From: Halosimplex litoreum
GTDB lineage: Archaea > Halobacteriota > Halobacteria > Halobacteriales > Haloarculaceae
NCBI RefSeq assembly: GCF_016065055.1
Contig: NZ_CP065856.1
Coordinates: 2,045,836 to 2,109,835 of the forward strand
Direction of reading: 5' to 3'
Length of the DNA: 64,000 nt
Shown here: piece after piece, positions 3,159-13,590 of the stretch
How positions within the stretch are numbered: the stretch's first letter is position 1
Layout of the letters: each line of letters starts with the position of its first letter
Made by a program: the position numbers and the translations under genes
Notes under the pieces: generated by a model
Database searches by the model: none
What the model saw: the letters and a program-made list of their open reading frames with translations, nothing else
Told to the model about the DNA's origin: nothing

Positions 3159-4127
3159 ATGTCACGGTCGGCACTGGTGGGCAACGTCACCGCGATGTTG
3201 GAGGACGCGGGCTTCGTGGTGAGCGAGCGCTGTGCCATCCGGCCGAAGAGCTTCGACGTCGCGGCCCGCCGCGGGGAGGAGGTCCTCCTCGTGAAGATCC
3301 TCGGCAACATCGACGCCTTCGACGGCCACACCGGCGCCGAGATGCGCCGGCTCGGCACGTATCTGGGCGCCACACCGATGGTCATCGGACTCAGAACGCG
3401 GGACGAGGAACTCAAACCGGGCGTCACCTACTTCCGCCACGGCGTCCCGGTGCTCTCGCCCGACACCGCCATGGATCTGTTCGTCGAGGGGGTCCCGCCG
3501 CTCATCTACGCGGCGCCGGGCGGCCTCTACGTCAACATCGACAGCGAAGTCCTCGCGGACGCCCGCGAGGACCGCGACTGGTCGCTCGGGCGGCTGGCCA
3601 ACGAGCTCGGCGTCTCCAGACGGACGGTCTCGAAGTACGAGGACGGCATGGACGCCTCCGTCGAGGTCGCCAGCCAGCTCCAGGAACTGTTCGACGAACC
3701 GCTCACCTCGCCCGTCGAGGTGCTGGAGGGCGCCGACGAAGTACGGGAGGACGAGGAGACGCCCGACGACCCCGAGGTCGACCCCGAGGACGAGCCCATC
3801 GTCGCCGTCCTCACCCGCGTCGGCTTCGACGTCCACCCCACGGACCGAGCGCCGTTCAAGACCGTCAGCGAGAACGAACGCCGCGAGGAAGAGATGCTGA
3901 CCGGTCACTCCGAGCTCACGAAGACCGCGGAGAAGCGCGCCCGCATCATGTCCTCGGTGGGCAGGGTCACCCGGACCCGGTCGGTGTACGTCGTCGAGCG
4001 CGCGACCAGAAAGTCCGTCGAGGGAACCGCTATCGTCGAGGAATCCGAGATGGAGAACATCCAGGAGGCCGACGAACTCCGGGACATCATCCGCGAGCGG
4101 GCCGACATCGAAGGCAGCTCCGCGTAG
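3159..4127 (+). CDS. HTH transcriptional regulator, COG1395-type
   Basis: A 322-residue protein. Residues 1-130 form an alpha/beta domain with the pattern of a nuclease-like or restriction-endonuclease-like fold ([17 protein letters not shown]). Residues about 141-165 are a clear XRE-like helix-turn-helix ([21 protein letters not shown]). The C-terminal part (about 195-322) is an acidic linker and a second conserved domain. This matches the conserved archaeal putative regulator family COG1395; its targets are not known to me. It is divergent from tiaS and has its own leaderless promoter. Confidence 0.85.
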
Positions 4128-5577: not shown

Positions 5578-5599
5578 GCTCGATAGCGGAGTGGGTGGT

Positions 5600-7651
5600 G
5601 TGTCACAGCAGGTCGGCGAGGTCGGGACGCTGTTCCTCCACGAGTACGGCGACGACGTGCGGGTCGCCGTCGTCAAGGACGGAGAGCGGCGTCTCCACGC
5701 GATACTGGAACTCAAGGAGACCGACGCCGGGCCGCGACCGGCGCGACTCCGCCTGAAGCAGGGCGCCAGCGAGGAGCCCCGCCCGCCCGACCTGTTCGTC
5801 GAACTCGCCCGCTCGGCCTCGCGCATCCGCATCTCCGAGCAGACCTCGAAGGCGACTCGCCGGCGCCTACAGGAACTGCTCGACGCCTACCAGCTCGAAG
5901 CCAAAGCCGTCCGCACCTGCCGCTACTGCGCCAGCGAGGGGCAGTACTCGCCGGTCACCTCCGAGACGGCCATCGAGGCCGACGGCGAGTACATCTGCCC
6001 CGACTGCGCGAAGGCCGAACTCGACCGCGAACTCGCCTACAAAGGCGAGATCACCGCCGGCGCCCGCGACCGGCTCTACGACCTGCTCACCGAGGTTCAG
6101 GACCTCGAACGCGTCTCGAACCTCCTGAAAGGCGATCTGGACCCCGATCTGACGAAGTTCGACGAGATCTCGGCGACCGTCGACGAGGTCGACCCCGTCC
6201 CGGTCGACTCGCTGGATCTCCACCCCGGTATTCAGGACCACCTCGAAGGGCGCTTCGACACGCTCCTGCCGGTCCAGAGTCTCGCCGTCGAGAACGGCGC
6301 GACCGAGGGCCAGGACCAACTGGTCGTGTCCGCGACGGCGACGGGGAAGACGCTCATCGGCGAGATGGCCGGCCTCGACCGCGTCCTGAACGGCAAGGGC
6401 AAGATGCTCTTTCTCGTGCCGCTGGTCGCGCTCGCCAACCAGAAACACGAGTCCTTCGAGGAGCGCTACGGCGACATGGTCGACGTCTCTCTCAGAGTCG
6501 GCGCCAGCCGCATCAACGACGGCGGCGGCCGCTTCGACCCCGGCGCCGACGTGATCGTCGGGACCTACGAGGGCATCGACCACGCGCTGCGGACCGGCAA
6601 GGACCTGGGCAACATCGGGACGGTCGTCATCGACGAGGTCCACACCCTCGGCGAGGACGAGCGCGGCCACCGCCTCGACGGCCTGATCTCGCGGCTGAAG
6701 TACTACTGCGGCGAGCGCTCGGACAACCGGAGCACGGACGGCACGCAGTGGATCTACCTCTCGGCGACCGTCGGCAACCCCGGCGACCTGGCCGAGCAGC
6801 TGCGCGCCCAGCTCATCGAGTTCGAGGAGCGCCCGGTCCCGATCGAACGCCACGTTACCTTCGCGGACGGCCGCGAGAAGATGCAGATAGAGAACAAGCT
6901 CGTCCGCAGGGCCTTCGACACGAAATCGTCGAAGGGGTATCGCGGCCAGACCATCATCTTCACTAACTCCCGGCGGCGCTGTCACGAGATCTCCCGCAAG
7001 CTGGAGTACGACTCGGCGCCCTACCACGCCGGGCTGGACCACCGCCGCCGGAAGAAGGTCGAGCGGATGTTCGCCGACCAGGATCTGGCCGCGGTCGTGA
7101 CGACCGCCGCACTCGCCGCGGGGGTCGACTTCCCCGCCTCGCAGGTCGTCTTCGACTCGCTGGCGATGGGCATCGAGTGGCTCACCGTCCAGGAGTTCCA
7201 CCAGATGCTCGGCCGCGCGGGGCGGCCGGACTACCACGACAAGGGCACCGTCTACGTCCTCGTCGAGCCCGACGGCAATTACCACAGCAGCCAGGAGATG
7301 AGCGAGGACGAGGTGGCGTTCAAGCTGCTGAAAGGCGAGATGGACCCTGTCATCACCCGCTACGACGAGGGCGCGGCCGTCGAGGAGACGCTCGCCAACG
7401 TCACCGTCGGGGGCAAGGCGGCCAAGCGGCTCAACGACCGGATGATCGGCGAGGTGCCGACAACACACGCCGTCGGCAAGCTGCTGGAGTACGAGTTCAT
7501 CGACGGCCTCTCGCCGACGCCGATGGGCCGGGCGGTCACCTCCCACTTCCTCTCGCCCGACGACGCGTTCCTGCTGCTCGACGGTATCCGCAAGGGGTCG
7601 GATCCCTACGACATCGTCGGGACGATGGAGCTGCGCGACGACGAGCGGTAG
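5600..7651 (+). CDS. Haloarchaeal superfamily 2 helicase, DUF5814-type
   Basis: About 683 residues. The N-terminal 220 residues are a haloarchaeal-specific domain with a four-cysteine zinc site (CRYC...CPDC). The helicase core follows: Walker A in SATATGKT, Walker B/DEAH-like box IDEVHTL, motif III LSATVGN, and the C-terminal RecA-like domain with LAAGVDFPA and QMLGRAGRPDY. It resembles Hel308/Ski2-like enzymes without the long accessory domains. I take GTG 5600 as start because of the TATA spacing. The last 36 codons have a second, diverged copy at 8645-8752, beyond an inserted toxin-antitoxin pair. Confidence 0.9.
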   Translation: MSQQVGEVGTLFLHEYGDDVRVAVVKDGERRLHAILELKETDAGPRPARLRLKQGASEEPRPPDLFVELARSASRIRISEQTSKATRRRLQELLDAYQLEAKAVRTCRYCASEGQYSPVTSETAIEADGEYICPDCAKAELDRELAYKGEITAGARDRLYDLLTEVQDLERVSNLLKGDLDPDLTKFDEISATVDEVDPVPVDSLDLHPGIQDHLEGRFDTLLPVQSLAVENGATEGQDQLVVSATATGKTLIGEMAGLDRVLNGKGKMLFLVPLVALANQKHESFEERYGDMVDVSLRVGASRINDGGGRFDPGADVIVGTYEGIDHALRTGKDLGNIGTVVIDEVHTLGEDERGHRLDGLISRLKYYCGERSDNRSTDGTQWIYLSATVGNPGDLAEQLRAQLIEFEERPVPIERHVTFADGREKMQIENKLVRRAFDTKSSKGYRGQTIIFTNSRRRCHEISRKLEYDSAPYHAGLDHRRRKKVERMFADQDLAAVVTTAALAAGVDFPASQVVFDSLAMGIEWLTVQEFHQMLGRAGRPDYHDKGTVYVLVEPDGNYHSSQEMSEDEVAFKLLKGEMDPVITRYDEGAAVEETLANVTVGGKAAKRLNDRMIGEVPTTHAVGKLLEYEFIDGLSPTPMGRAVTSHFLSPDDAFLLLDGIRKGSDPYDIVGTMELRDDER

Positions 7652-7661
7652 GCGATCGGGA

Positions 7662-8111
7662 TCAGATCGCGTCCACATCGTCGAGGTAGTCGCGGAGCTC
7701 GTGGAGAAACGCCCTGTAGCGACCGAGATCCTGAAGCGCCTCGTACACGATGTCTTGATCGAGCACGTCGCCGTATTCGTGGGCGAGCACGTTTCGAAAC
7801 ATCGCCGCCTGACCCATCTTCGAAGCGGTTTCCGCGGAGAGTACGTCGACGGTCGCGAGTCGCTCCATCACGGCGGCGTTCGAATCCGGAGCCCGACCGT
7901 CGATGTCGCGGAGGAGCATCCGCCCGATGTCGACACACGCCTGGCTCGCCTTCTCGAAACGGCGTTCGACCACGTCTCTGGTCACGGTATCCGACCGATA
8001 GGCATCACGGGTGATGGACTGGCGGGCTGCGAGAATTTCGAGACACTCTTCGACGAACTCTGCCTTCTCGACCATCGTCTCGACGCGGTCAGGACCGTGC
8101 GGGTCCGACAT
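7662..8111 (-). CDS. hepT: HepT-type HEPN toxin RNase (DUF86)
   Basis: A 149-residue all-helical HEPN protein. The catalytic RX4HXY motif is intact: R106, H111 and Y113 in RNVLAHEYGD. In characterised HepT/MntA systems this motif is the RNase active site, and the tyrosine is the residue that the partner MntA modifies with AMP. The gene lies 3 bp after the MNT gene, on the same strand, as in the classic operon. Its 3' end is only 10 bp from the convergent helicase stop codon. A second, decayed copy of its 5' end is at about 9021-9112. Confidence 0.9.
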   Translation of the reverse strand: MSDPHGPDRVETMVEKAEFVEECLEILAARQSITRDAYRSDTVTRDVVERRFEKASQACVDIGRMLLRDIDGRAPDSNAAVMERLATVDVLSAETASKMGQAAMFRNVLAHEYGDVLDQDIVYEALQDLGRYRAFLHELRDYLDDVDAI

Positions 8112-8114
8112 CGG

Positions 8115-8582
8115 TCACCCCGCGCGCTCGACGTGTCGGTCCACCCGTTCGAGCGTCTCGTCGAGCCGGTCGCGGAGCGACTGGTTCGGTTCGCGCCGTT
8201 CCGCGGCGGCTTCGAACTCGTCTCGGAGTGCGTCCGCGCGCTCTGGCGACCCGGACAGGAGAACGCCGTGCGAGAACGCCGCACGACCGACCCGCGGATC
8301 GAGGTCGTCGACGAGCGAGAGGTCGATATCGTTGCGGTCGAGTGCCACGGAGAGGTCGGCGAGCAGCGACAGGAGCGGTTCGCCGGGGTCATCGACGGCT
8401 CCCTCGAAATCGACGGCGATATCGACATCGCTGCTAGCGTCCGCGACGCCGGTGACCTGTGAGCCGAACAGAACCGCCAGACGGATCGGATACTGGTCGA
8501 GCACCGTCCGGATCCGATCGGTGTCGATAGAAACCGCGGTCTCCCGCTCCGATAGATCGGTGGGCGCCTCCCGCTCGCTCAT
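8115..8582 (-). CDS. mntA: MntA-type minimal nucleotidyltransferase antitoxin
   Basis: A 155-residue protein starting at the ATG at 8582 (the longer frame needs a TTG). The nucleotidyltransferase signature is intact: GS at residues 40-41 (VLFGSQVTG) followed by the DxD pair at 52 and 54 (SSDVDIAVD). Proteins of this family transfer AMP groups to the tyrosine of the HepT HXY motif and silence the RNase. The C-terminal helices are arginine-rich. It precedes hepT by 3 bp. Together they form an inserted cassette at the helicase 3' end. Confidence 0.9.
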   Translation of the reverse strand: MSEREAPTDLSERETAVSIDTDRIRTVLDQYPIRLAVLFGSQVTGVADASSDVDIAVDFEGAVDDPGEPLLSLLADLSVALDRNDIDLSLVDDLDPRVGRAAFSHGVLLSGSPERADALRDEFEAAAERREPNQSLRDRLDETLERVDRHVERAG

Positions 8583-8644
8583 CGTGCGTCCGAGTTGGCG
8601 GACGAGCGACAAACCTGTTGCGGTGGCCGCGACCGATCCCGGCG

Positions 8645-8752
8645 TCTCACGAGCTACCGCCCGACCACGCCTTCCTGCTGCTCGACGGCATCCGAAAGGG
8701 CGACGACTCCTACGACATCGTCGGGACGATGGAACTGCGCGACGACGAGTGA
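8645..8752 (+). pseudogene. Displaced duplicate of the helicase 3' end
   Basis: Reading frame SHELPPDHAFLLLDGIR and onward through IVGTMELRDDE and a TGA stop. By direct alignment 30 of 35 residues match the intact helicase C-terminus (7541-7651), and many third-codon positions differ. No helicase sequence lies upstream of it, so it is a fragment without a start. It sits just beyond the HEPN/MNT pair and marks the place where that pair entered or was exchanged. Confidence 0.85.
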
Positions 8753-8755
8753 GTC
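8741..8755 (+). repeat. 15-bp direct repeat, copy 1
   Basis: GACGACGAGTGAGTC, formed by the last codons and stop of the helicase remnant. An exact second copy is at 9006-9020, formed by the last codons and stop of the small membrane protein. The two copies bound a 265-bp unit. Confidence 0.8.
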
Positions 8756-8810
8756 CACTTCGTTCTCTTGAAGCTACAAGAAATACGTAGACTGACCGGC
8801 GACCCCAGAT

Positions 8811-9017
8811 ATGTCGATAGAAGTCGAGGGGTACGAGTTACTTTTCCTTTATTATCTATTGATGAGTGCACTCGTTGCTTGGTACACGAGAGACTACCAC
8901 TCCAATGGGACGTTAATCTACGTTCTATTAACCATCGGGGCGCTTTCGCTCATCTATCTCAGACAGAAGGGCCCGGAGTCGGTCCAACGGTTGATCCGCC
9001 TCTCGGACGACGAGTGA
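8811..9017 (+). CDS. Small two-helix membrane protein, unknown function
   Basis: A 68-residue protein with two predicted membrane helices (about residues 8-26 and 33-50) and a polar C-tail ending RLSDDE. The coding sequence is clearly lower in GC than its neighbours, which suggests transfer. A TATA-like gaaatacg about 28 bp before the ATG would give a leaderless transcript. The gene lies exactly between two copies of a 15-bp direct repeat, inside the HEPN/MNT island. I do not recognise the family; an association with the toxin-antitoxin island is inferred only from position. Confidence 0.6.
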   Translation: MSIEVEGYELLFLYYLLMSALVAWYTRDYHSNGTLIYVLLTIGALSLIYLRQKGPESVQRLIRLSDDE

Positions 9018-9020
9018 GTC
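9006..9020 (+). repeat. 15-bp direct repeat, copy 2
   Basis: Exact second copy of GACGACGAGTGAGTC (first copy 8741-8755). It ends precisely where recognisable HEPN remnant sequence begins on its right side. Confidence 0.8.
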
Positions 9021-9112
9021 TTCGCTCGCCGTTCTCGTCCGATGGCGTTCTCCGTGGATTCGAGACGTTCGTCGACGAATGTGGTCTTCTCGACCACTGT
9101 CTCGACGCGTTC
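9021..9112 (-). pseudogene. Decayed 5' end of a second HEPN toxin gene
   Basis: On the minus strand the sequence encodes RVETVVEKTTFVDERLES, which aligns with RVETMVEKAEFVEECLEI near the N-terminus of the intact HEPN toxin at 7662-8111. About 30 codons remain, with a small deletion. The start codon is not preserved and the fragment is cut off at the 15-bp repeat. No RX4H active site remains. Confidence 0.75.
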
Positions 9113-9187
9113 GCGACAGCGAGTAGTGCCGATCGCGGTAGGGCGACCGTACCTCGTGGTAGCTCGCCGCACGCGAGCGCCCAAGAC

Positions 9188-9193
9188 TTATAT
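9188..9193 (+). promoter_or_regulatory. TATA box for the PHP gene
   Basis: The box ttatat is centred about 26 bp before the ATG at 9217, predicting a leaderless transcript. Confidence 0.6.
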
Positions 9194-9216
9194 CGGTCGA
9201 TAGCCTGGAACAGGCA

Positions 9217-10086
9217 ATGACTGCCGGAACCGGGCCCGATCCGGCCCGAACTATCACCCTCGACGCACACGTCCACACGGACGCGTCCTACGACTGTGCG
9301 ACCCCGCCCGAACGCGTCGTCGAGGCGGCGCTCTCGGCCGGCCTCGACGCGGTCGCGGTCACCGACCACGACGCCGTCGTCGGCGCGCCACGGGCGGTCG
9401 CCGCCGCCGAGGGAACGGACCTGCTCGTCGTGCCGGGCGTGGAGGTCTCGACGGCCGACGGCCACCTGCTCGCGCTGGGGGTCGAGTGGGCGCCCGAACC
9501 GGGGCGCCCGTTCGCCGAGACGGTGACCGCGGTCCGCGAGGCCGGCGGCGTGTCCGTCGTCCCGCATCCCTTCCAGATCAGCCGCCACGGCGTCCGCCGG
9601 GCGGTCCTGGCCGGCTGCGAGGTCGACGGTATCGAGACGCGAAACGCCGTCGCGGTGACGGGGTACCAGAACCGACGGGCCAGACAGTTCGCGACCGCCG
9701 AGGGACACCCGGCGATCGGCGGCAGCGACGCACACCGGCCGGACCTGATCGGACGGGCGTTCACGAGCGTCACGCTCCCCGCCGGGGTCGACTGGACGAC
9801 GATGACGGTCGCGGACGTGCTGGCGGGGATCCGTGCGGGCCGGGCGACCGCGCAGGGGACCGTCACGACGCCGGTCGAGTTCGGGAAGACCTACGCCTGG
9901 CACGCTCGCGAGACGGCGGCGACGGCGCTCGACTCGGCGGGGACCGCCGCGTCGAACGGCCGGACGGCGGCGGGCGCCCACCCCGCGCTCGGCGCCGGTG
10001 CGGTGCTCGGCTCCGCGCTGTTGCTCGGCTCGCGAGGCGGCCGCGTCGGCCGCGTTCCCCGCCGTATCGCCGGCCGGATCCGCTAG
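9217..10086 (+). CDS. PHP-domain metal-dependent phosphoesterase
   Basis: A 289-residue protein. Metal-binding motifs of the PHP family are in order: LDAHVHTDASYDC near residue 14, VTDHD near 47, VVPGVEV near 70, VVPHPFQ near 113 and GGSDAH near 170. This set supports hydrolysis of a phosphoester with a trinuclear metal site, as in YciV/RNase AM-like or histidinol-phosphatase-like enzymes. The substrate is unknown. The last 70 residues are alanine/glycine-rich, with one hydrophobic stretch (AGAVLGSALLLG) and a basic tail, so membrane attachment is possible. Confidence 0.85.
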   Translation: MTAGTGPDPARTITLDAHVHTDASYDCATPPERVVEAALSAGLDAVAVTDHDAVVGAPRAVAAAEGTDLLVVPGVEVSTADGHLLALGVEWAPEPGRPFAETVTAVREAGGVSVVPHPFQISRHGVRRAVLAGCEVDGIETRNAVAVTGYQNRRARQFATAEGHPAIGGSDAHRPDLIGRAFTSVTLPAGVDWTTMTVADVLAGIRAGRATAQGTVTTPVEFGKTYAWHARETAATALDSAGTAASNGRTAAGAHPALGAGAVLGSALLLGSRGGRVGRVPRRIAGRIR

Positions 10087-12088: not shown

Positions 12089-12113
12089 CGGCTGCTCCGT
12101 AAGTGAGAGTCAC

Positions 12114-12184
12114 GGGACCGTGGGGTAGCGGTATCCTTCCAGCCTTGGGTGCTGGTAACCCCGGTTCGAATCCGGGCGGTCCCA
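12114..12184 (+). tRNA. tRNA-Pro (anticodon UGG)
   Basis: A 71-nt cloverleaf. The acceptor stem is GGGACCG with CGGTCCC, followed by discriminator A. The anticodon stem CCAGC/GCTGG closes the loop CTTGGGT with anticodon TGG, and the T arm is CCCCGGTTCGAATCCGGG. No intron is seen and the 3' CCA is not encoded. A TnpB gene follows 125 bp downstream, a common place for mobile DNA. Confidence 0.95.
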
Positions 12185-12309
12185 CTCCTCTCGCGTTCGA
12201 TCTCACGGATATAGGATGGCGCGTATCGACCCAAGCAAGAGAGGTCACAGAGCGTAGATCTACTGATAACACACCAACCATTAACTCGCTATCCCCTCTA
12301 TTTGACACC

Positions 12310-13590
12310 GTGGCGAGCGACGACTACGTGCGGCGCACCGCAATCACACGTCTGTCAGTGTCGTCTGAGCAAGCCGAACGGCTTGAAGACACGATTGACG
12401 AGTATCGAACGGGCGCGAACATCGCCACGAAAATCGGCTGGAATTGCCGAGAAACTGAAAGCCGAAAACTCCAGTCGCTCGCATACGACGATATCCGCGA
12501 TCAAACTGATCTCGGGAGTCAGCACGCCATACTTGCCTGCTTCCAGGCCGCAGAGGCCCTCAGAGGTGTTGCCGAACGAAAGCGACAAGACCGCCCTTAC
12601 TCGAGACCCGATTTCACTGCACCGACAGTGAAGTACGATGCCAAGACGATGACTCTGTTCGAGAATGACACAGTCTCACTCGCCACTACGGGCAGCCGTG
12701 TTAGGTGTGAGCTGGTACTGCCCGATGAGGAGGACGGATATCAGCACCAGTATCTCGACAGCGATGAATGGGAAGTGACTGAGTCTACACTTACTGCGCG
12801 TGACGACGCCTATTTTCTACATCTCGGGTTCCGAAAGCCGAAACCAGATACCGAGGGGTCTCCCGCTGAGGACAGGACAGTCCTCGGGGTTGATCTCGGT
12901 ATCGAAAACCTCGCCGTCACCAGCACCGCCCACTTCGAGTCGGGTCAAGAGTTGTTACACGATCATCGTGAGTTCGAGCGCATACGCGGCAATCTTCAGC
13001 AAACAGGCACCGAATCTGCACATCGGACGCTTCTCCAGCGAGGAGATCGCGAGGAAGGTTACAACCGAGATTACATTCACGGCGTATCTAACCAATTGCT
13101 CGCGGAAGCCGTTGGTCACGGTTGTACCCATATCGTCTTCGAGAATTTGACGCACATTGGAGACTCGATGCCGAGCAGGCGAAAGTTCCACCAGTGGGCG
13201 CATGCGAAACTCGTACAGTACGTTGAGTACAAAGCCGATGAACTCGATATCGAAGTCGGCTACGTGGATCCGAGGAACACTTCGAAGCGGTGCTGTGAAT
13301 GCGGACACATCAGCGATGAGAACCGCACGGATCGCGACAGTTTCGAGTGCGAGAAATGTGGAGCAACGGCAAACGCGGATTACAATGCGGCGAAAAACGT
13401 CGGTTGGCGGTTTGTCCGTCGGGGGCTACAGAACTCACGGCGGACGGGCGACAGTCAACTCGCCCTCAAGTCGGGGACAGTGAAACCGAATCGAGGATTC
13501 GTCTCGTACTCTGAACAAGAGGCCGAGGTAACGTCCACCGACAAGTTCCACCCACCGAGAAGCAAGCGGGCGTCAGCCCCGAGCGAGTAG
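12310..13590 (+). CDS. tnpB: TnpB RNA-guided nuclease, IS1341-type
   Basis: 426 residues from GTG 12310. The RuvC-like triad is complete: D195 in GVDLGIEN, E278 in VFENL and D357 in ANADYNAAKN. Between the last two is an intact zinc finger (CCECGH...CEKCGA). Proteins of this family use an RNA made from the element's right end to cut DNA next to a short motif and help keep IS200/IS605 elements in place. No TnpA transposase is present within the window, so this is an IS1341-type solo tnpB. Lower GC and different codon use from neighbours support recent arrival. The frame is also open back into the tRNA, but that part is not coding. Confidence 0.93.
   Translation: MASDDYVRRTAITRLSVSSEQAERLEDTIDEYRTGANIATKIGWNCRETESRKLQSLAYDDIRDQTDLGSQHAILACFQAAEALRGVAERKRQDRPYSRPDFTAPTVKYDAKTMTLFENDTVSLATTGSRVRCELVLPDEEDGYQHQYLDSDEWEVTESTLTARDDAYFLHLGFRKPKPDTEGSPAEDRTVLGVDLGIENLAVTSTAHFESGQELLHDHREFERIRGNLQQTGTESAHRTLLQRGDREEGYNRDYIHGVSNQLLAEAVGHGCTHIVFENLTHIGDSMPSRRKFHQWAHAKLVQYVEYKADELDIEVGYVDPRNTSKRCCECGHISDENRTDRDSFECEKCGATANADYNAAKNVGWRFVRRGLQNSRRTGDSQLALKSGTVKPNRGFVSYSEQEAEVTSTDKFHPPRSKRASAPSE

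Follow-up and report, generated by a model that had tools for sequence, protein, structure and literature searches.

How do small toxin-antitoxin (TA) pairs that carry no mobility genes spread between chromosomes? This open question is raised by a locus in the genome of Halosimplex litoreum (G000), which consists of one contig of 4.16 Mb. A stretch of 64,000 nucleotides (nt) of this genome, called the window below, was analyzed, and coordinates are positions within it. In the window, a HepT/MntA pair, whose TA family ranks among the most abundant in prokaryotes, is positioned between two copies of the 3' end of a helicase gene. This footprint offers a concrete and testable answer, namely that the pair would attach itself at a borrowed host gene end and leave that gene intact. 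The results described here make it probable that the cassette entered the helicase 3' end by recombination, in a single crossover of a tail-bearing unit that displaced the old tail.

The docking gene (5591..7651, plus strand) encodes a DEAD-box helicase of the Hel308/Ski2-like superfamily 2 and is intact. It contains the Pfam domains DEAD and Helicase_C, and its best NCBIfam matches are of the Hel308 type, below cut-off. The last 36 codons with the stop codon TAG (tail 1, 7541..7651, plus strand) are the functional end of the gene and match the tail of H. pelagicum R2 at 101 of 105 nt. Tail 2 (8626..8752, plus strand) is a displaced helicase 3' end with its own stop codon TGA. An earlier note on the window had reported the 3' end twice, at 7541-7651 and 8645-8752, with 30 of 35 residues identical, and this is borne out: positions 7541-7645 and 8645-8749, which correspond to helicase codons 650-685, align without gaps at 88 of 105 nt (84%), and the codons that differ comprise 8 silent and 5 replacement changes. 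A gapped alignment extends the similarity back to about codon 640 (7513 and 8626; score 75, shuffle maximum 21), and tail 2 is clear from 8662, its 5' part being decayed. Over its last 75 nt, tail 2 has mostly silent differences, which suggest that this part was under selection until recently. Compared by blastn, the two flanks of the cassette give 113 bits and an E-value of about 1e-29, and a chance match was rejected on this basis. Only hepT and mntA, both on the minus strand, lie between tail 1 and tail 2; the Pfam and NCBIfam families agree with the earlier note that nothing but HEPN and MNT genes, and no integrase, is found there. No RNA families were found within positions 7400-9300.

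The hepT gene (7662..8111, minus strand) codes for a predicted HEPN ribonuclease toxin of 149 amino acids with the motif R106-X4-H111-X-Y113. It scores 75.8 bits with PF01934 and 96.8 bits with the NCBIfam family HepT_toxin NF047751 (cut-off 60), and the three residues of the RX4HXY motif are invariant in the HepT alignment. The mntA gene (8115..8582, minus strand) codes for a predicted nucleotidyltransferase antitoxin; its ATG start is at about 8582, and the open frame reaches 8612. Its product is above cut-off with PF18765 and PF01909 and, at 57.3 bits, just under the cut-off of 60 with the NCBIfam family MntA NF047752. The GSX10DXD motif reads GSQVTGVADASSDVD in the translation. Judged by family and motif, the pair is a HepT/MntA (type VII) TA module. 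Such modules, also known as HEPN/MNT, consist of two adjacent genes, one for an HEPN ribonuclease with RX4HXY and one for an MNT adenylyltransferase with GSX10DXD (PMC7641770), and the window pair has the same two adjacent genes and both motifs. The portion of that source considered here describes a TA module and does not mention a duplicated gene-tail footprint. The right end of the cassette proper is formed by a conserved region upstream of mntA (GACAAACaTaTTG..GTGGCC, 8583..8625, minus strand), which is common to all four helicase-site cassettes described below.

The helicase 3' ends of 80 relatives were compared together with 7 kb of sequence. All six cassette-free Halosimplex relatives contain one helicase tail. 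In four of them (G007, G003, G006 and G002) the single tail is followed about 110 nt later by the PHP gene, as the earlier note had expected of genomes without the pair, and in two more (G005 and G004) by other genes. Second tails were sought in 140 genomes of the family that have the gene, with the last 93 helicase residues as the query, and in 383 genomes of the order that have the tail. Among the 140 family genomes a second match was found in H. litoreum, in G008 and G041, and in two further genomes: that of G437 is a duplicated whole gene (on two contigs of an assembly with 6% contamination), and that of G014 is weak and belongs to another helicase. At the level of the order, two further genomes (G332 and G358) each gave two weak matches, which turned out to be an inverted fragment and a split gene. 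Second helicase tails thus go with the cassette among the family genomes, and two tails without the pair, which would have contradicted the earlier note, were seen in neither set apart from the split gene, the inverted fragment and the duplicated whole gene of the contaminated assembly. At this similarity nearly all family genomes have a single copy of the helicase, and the idea that tail 2 stems from a second complete helicase gene was rejected for this reason.

The closest relatives of the window HepT (69-70%) are found in three Halorhabdus genomes, G008, G041 and G064, all behind the same helicase and all with displaced tails. In G041 the helicase is followed by an open reading frame (ORF) of 225 codons with a Tat-like signal, a tail, hepT/mntA, a further tail and an HtpX-like gene, so that the locus has three tails, as in the window. 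In G064 a shortened tail after mntA was found by direct comparison. In G008 there is a decayed tail stub, the nucleotide similarity of which, taken alone, is not above that of shuffled controls; farther on, a fragment of a transporter gene runs into a helicase tail of 93 codons. The flank past the last tail continues in all three genomes as in the cassette-free Halorhabdus G027 and G053; hence it is the last tail, not the first, that is contiguous with the flank of the empty site. Furthermore, in G008 and G064 the stop codon of tail 1 is TAG, and the displaced tail keeps the TGA of the empty site. Simple vertical descent from a common ancestor of Halosimplex and Halorhabdus was rejected because it would need many losses: the helicase tree does not group the genera as sisters, and in each of them the cassette has a patchy distribution. 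HepT relatives in G147 (63%) and G380 (65%) are not at a helicase and have no flanking repeat there. The hepT of G064 (L059, about 2563) has an in-frame TAG near its start, mntA being open; the toxin is probably inactive in this organism, Halorhabdus salina.

A second site gives a more direct view of the exchange. In G041 and G008 a different HepT/MntA pair is located 3' of a chlorite-dismutase/ABM (hemQ-like) gene, with a displaced tail on the far side. The pair is absent from this site in G027, G053, G302 and G342, where the hemQ tail is followed by the NifU region. In G041 tail 1 stops with TAG, whereas the displaced tail again has TGA, like the empty site, and the flank beyond the displaced tail continues as in G027, which has no pair. 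The genomes of these two Halorhabdus species mostly differ at 5-12 positions per 100 nt at this locus. The stretch that begins 51 nt before the tail 1 stop and ends 45 nt before the tail 2 stop spans about 1060 nt with about 12 differences, which is about 1% divergence against a background of 8%. The block of low divergence shows that the shared unit consists of the end of the tail, the cassette and the start of the second tail. At either edge of this unit, the switch is located within one and the same 6-nt segment of the tail. These matching edges have the pattern expected from one reciprocal crossover between a tail-bearing circle and the gene; as the case comes from a single genome pair and a short repeat, the argument is strong but not conclusive. 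In G064 a bare second hemQ tail (L321; 17 codons, 71%) lies about 90 nt after the stop, with no TA gene, and may be the scar of a lost cassette.

The earlier note had proposed that the cassette carries its own replacement tail, and that a comparison of the two tails would tell which of them fits the host lineage. The first idea is seen directly at hemQ. At the window itself the tails could be placed, tail 1 being nearest to H. pelagicum (71 of the last 75 nt) and tail 2 to G006 (73 of 75), but the comparison does not discriminate between them because both are of the Halosimplex type.

The scheme that would account for these findings is as follows. The HepT/MntA cassette would travel as a unit that includes a copy of the tail of its target gene. 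A form of DNA with tail and cassette, most simply a circle, would undergo a single crossover with the tail of a gene that is not interrupted. The incoming tail would complete the gene, which would therefore stay whole; the cassette would come next, and the old tail would be left beyond it, beside its old neighbor. Repeated insertion would stack cassettes and tails. The direct repeats would also allow precise excision by recombination, so that the circle and the empty site form again. Cells that lose the unit would be left without antitoxin and be selected against, and addiction would in this way keep repeat-flanked inserts in place. The scheme presupposes homologous recombination as the agent and an event that gave rise to the first tail-bearing cassette.

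Is the footprint confined to these two genes? At 92 loci where HepT-like and MntA-like genes are neighbors, 700 nt on each side were searched for direct repeats of at least 40 bits. Equal segments elsewhere in the same loci served as controls, and duplicates and the helicase loci were removed. Direct repeats flank 22 of 82 HepT/MntA pairs compared to 21 of 730 control segments (P about 2e-12), and simulations with one random segment per locus gave a mean of 2.3 and a maximum of 8, against the 22 observed. For the haloarchaeal pairs only, the counts are 22 of 71 and 13 of 655 (P about 1e-15), and none of the 11 non-haloarchaeal pairs is flanked. Inverted repeats were found around none of 86 pairs. 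Loci of the VapBC type have flanking repeats in only 2 of 40 cases (P 0.0035 against HepT/MntA). The earlier note had called a protein-coding 3' end an unusual docking site for such a pair, but direct repeats bracket about 30% of the haloarchaeal HepT/MntA pairs tested. There are no tRNA genes at the 22 repeat-flanked loci and no paired attC boxes (RYYYAAC, GTTRRRY) in their repeats. The repeats are 36 to over 500 nt long and occur at unrelated genes, and no shared core was noticed. An intact gene for an 89-residue zinc-ribbon-like protein at one end of an array in G147 supplies the repeat there with its last 20 codons; in G043 it is the 36-nt tail of an amidohydrolase-like gene (named by eye). 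The G024 repeat comprises an AAA_12 gene tail and sequence downstream of it, and the two extra tails have the same first codon. Recurrence of the footprint around such pairs at other genes in other haloarchaea suggests that these small units, which have no integrase, move through an exchange of gene ends. The window genome has a second HepT-like gene (G000:C1:3203189-3203581, 36% identity), which lacks flanking direct repeats above threshold.

Several loci hold more than two copies of the repeat, all in one orientation: eight in G397, seven in G329 and four in G024. The G397 array has a repeat of ~110 nt between cassettes that include DUF7342, ParE, HepT/MntA and PIN genes, and in G022 two HEPN-MNT pairs alternate with three repeats, one at either end and one between the pairs. 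The eight-copy repeat of G397 (L328/L329; G397:C1, about 1843037-1855981) is the 3' end of the gene for a small CxxC protein, placed between diverse TA genes; the locus, where a long segment also holds ORFs that by eye look Cdc6- and terminase-like, is an integron-like array without attC. The seven copies in G329 (L344; G329:C29, 806-17055) are of a 68-nt repeat with CTCGAG near both ends, around PIN, HepT/MntA and other genes. In G024 (L332/L333; G024:C1) at least two duplicates of the AAA_12 tail, which share the 5' edge LLTVVVCSTALFE, separate HepT/MntA from a MazF/PemK-like ORF that has no Pfam match.

The main rival of tail exchange is an integrase acting in trans, which would recognize a core in the 3' region of a gene and insert a small non-autonomous cassette there, as tyrosine-recombinase elements do at the 3' ends of tRNA and protein-coding genes. 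In the window, G041 and G064 the displaced tails have similar 5' edges, at about 139-149 nt before the stop, two tail copies in the G024 array share their 5' edge, and archaeal elements are known to use 3'-distal coding sites (PMC6563490). The common edges may, however, reflect common descent, the helicase-site cassette has no integrase, and the length range of the repeats, their unrelated target genes and the lack of a noticed core, of tRNA genes and of attC boxes all speak against such an enzyme, which we consider unlikely. Ordinary tandem duplication or chance, with tail 2 being the end of a paralogous gene or the leftover of an unrelated duplication of the locus, would be in keeping with those flanking repeats elsewhere that are repeated small genes or leaders. 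It is nevertheless highly improbable here, given a helicase that is single-copy in nearly all family genomes, empty sites that have no second tail, and the blastn E-value of the flanks.

Two further rivals are each somewhat less credible than an integrase in trans. A linear donor could be inserted by homology-facilitated illegitimate recombination, in which one end anchors in the gene and the other joins by chance at an upstream microhomology, thus duplicating the stretch between. Tail lengths do vary widely, and such joining clearly contributes at the G008 helicase locus, where a 10-nt microhomology join at codon 593 produces a 93-codon extra tail; yet this mechanism does not predict a crossover at the same coordinate of both hemQ tails, or several tail copies with one 5' edge. 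The footprint might also result from a survival filter. Insertion would then be unspecific, and repeat-flanked inserts would revert by recombination unless they carry an addiction module. ParE and PIN genes among the array cargo, and the patchy occurrence in Halosimplex and Halorhabdus with clean empty sites, agree with this, but VapBC, which is also an addiction module, has the footprint at only 2 of 40 loci, and the non-TA inserts of G041 (the 225-codon ORF) and of the window (a 68-codon ORF) carry tails as well. The filter is compatible with tail exchange as a second layer.

Several findings weigh against insertion by tail exchange or narrow its reach. The 22 repeat-flanked loci are partly related (L267/L269, L173/L262, L191/L214 and L193/L202), and about 18 are left after collapsing. 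Some flanking repeats are leaders of neighboring TA operons or small repeated genes rather than gene tails, and the class is therefore mixed. The 93-codon length of the displaced tail in G008 is due to the join with the transporter fragment, so illegitimate joins also happen at the helicase site. The donor tail of the window is not identifiable with the relatives compared. The plasmid and phage collections contained no helicase tail, and no circle or free tail-bearing element was found. The agreement of the hemQ edges concerns one genome pair and a repeat of ~60 nt, where by our own estimate chance agreement would be of the order of 10-20%. Tail exchange at the helicase remains the explanation that we favor. 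The wider proposal is tentative, and we hold it to be possible rather than probable: that haloarchaea harbor a class of integrase-less cassettes, mainly HepT/MntA pairs, which have copies of the host gene's 3' tail as attachment sites. Such cassettes would travel together with a tail, enter a gene by an exchange inside that tail and pile up in integron-like arrays at genes such as the helicase, hemQ and zinc-ribbon genes, their own toxin guarding them against loss.

Such cassettes would have partial parallels among known systems. A survey of Thaumarchaeota described archaeal elements integrated at the 3' ends of protein-coding genes, a Zn-finger gene being among the targets (PMC6563490). The 3'-distal coding target, the restoration of the gene by the incoming end, the direct repeats and the empty sites are the same. 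However, those elements are larger, typically have their own integrase or casposase and generally use short attachment sites, whereas the window cassette consists of two genes without a recombinase and the haloarchaeal repeats are some tens to some hundreds of nt long. Archaea are also known to have integrons (PMC9668308), although the words Halobacteri and haloarchae are absent from that paper. Integron arrays and clusters of attC sites lacking integron integrases (CALINs) likewise consist of tandem small cassettes, with TA genes among them and a repeated element in one orientation, but in the haloarchaeal arrays gene tails or local sequence serve as the repeats, attC boxes are lacking, and no IntI was seen. 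In Sulfolobus islandicus, vapBC loci were reported next to degenerate insertion sequence (IS) elements, and HEPN-NT gene pairs were reported to be stable (PMC3718332). The literature searched, which left most subscription journals outside its scope, yielded no description of HepT/MntA cassettes between gene tails. Minimal mobile elements and the C-terminal modules of polymorphic toxins have their content swapped by homologous recombination in flanking genes, and displaced 3' ends are left as orphans. In the present case, by contrast, docking takes place at an unrelated housekeeping gene, and a self-contained TA pair forms the cargo. Such cassettes and arrays could be found elsewhere by a search for two-gene units that are bracketed by direct repeats of a gene tail.

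The insert between the helicase and PHP genes of the window is ~1.48 kb long and extends past tail 2. An orphan membrane-like ORF of 68 codons (8811..9017, plus strand) lies between tail 2 and a tail 3 stub, GACGACGAGTGAGTC (9006..9020, plus strand), which comprises the final tail codons and stop as an exact 15-nt match (0.07 expected in the window). The last codons and stop of the ORF coincide with the stub; it has no relative among 116 genomes and no family match. Further downstream is a remnant of the 5' end of a second hepT from an older cassette (9059..9117, minus strand; 78% to 8037-8095, E 8e-6 within its own genome). Together, the ORF, the stub and the remnant indicate that the insert records stacked events, more than one in number. 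The Halosimplex intergenic sequence restarts at about 9131, and 9131..9216 (plus strand) is the ancestral helicase-PHP spacer, as judged by comparison with the empty sites. It leads to the PHP-domain gene (9217..10086, plus strand), the ancestral downstream neighbor, which adjoins the single tail in the four Halosimplex genomes named above.

Two side observations concern other parts of the material. In G008 the transporter fragment (L052, oriented 3302-3771) joins helicase codon 593 at the 10-nt microhomology GGCCGTCGAG. In the window, positions 12103-13590 hold a TnpB-like ORF (by eye), the start frame of which reads like a translated tRNA (NPGSNPGGP); this is likely an insert of the IS200/IS605 type beside a tRNA.

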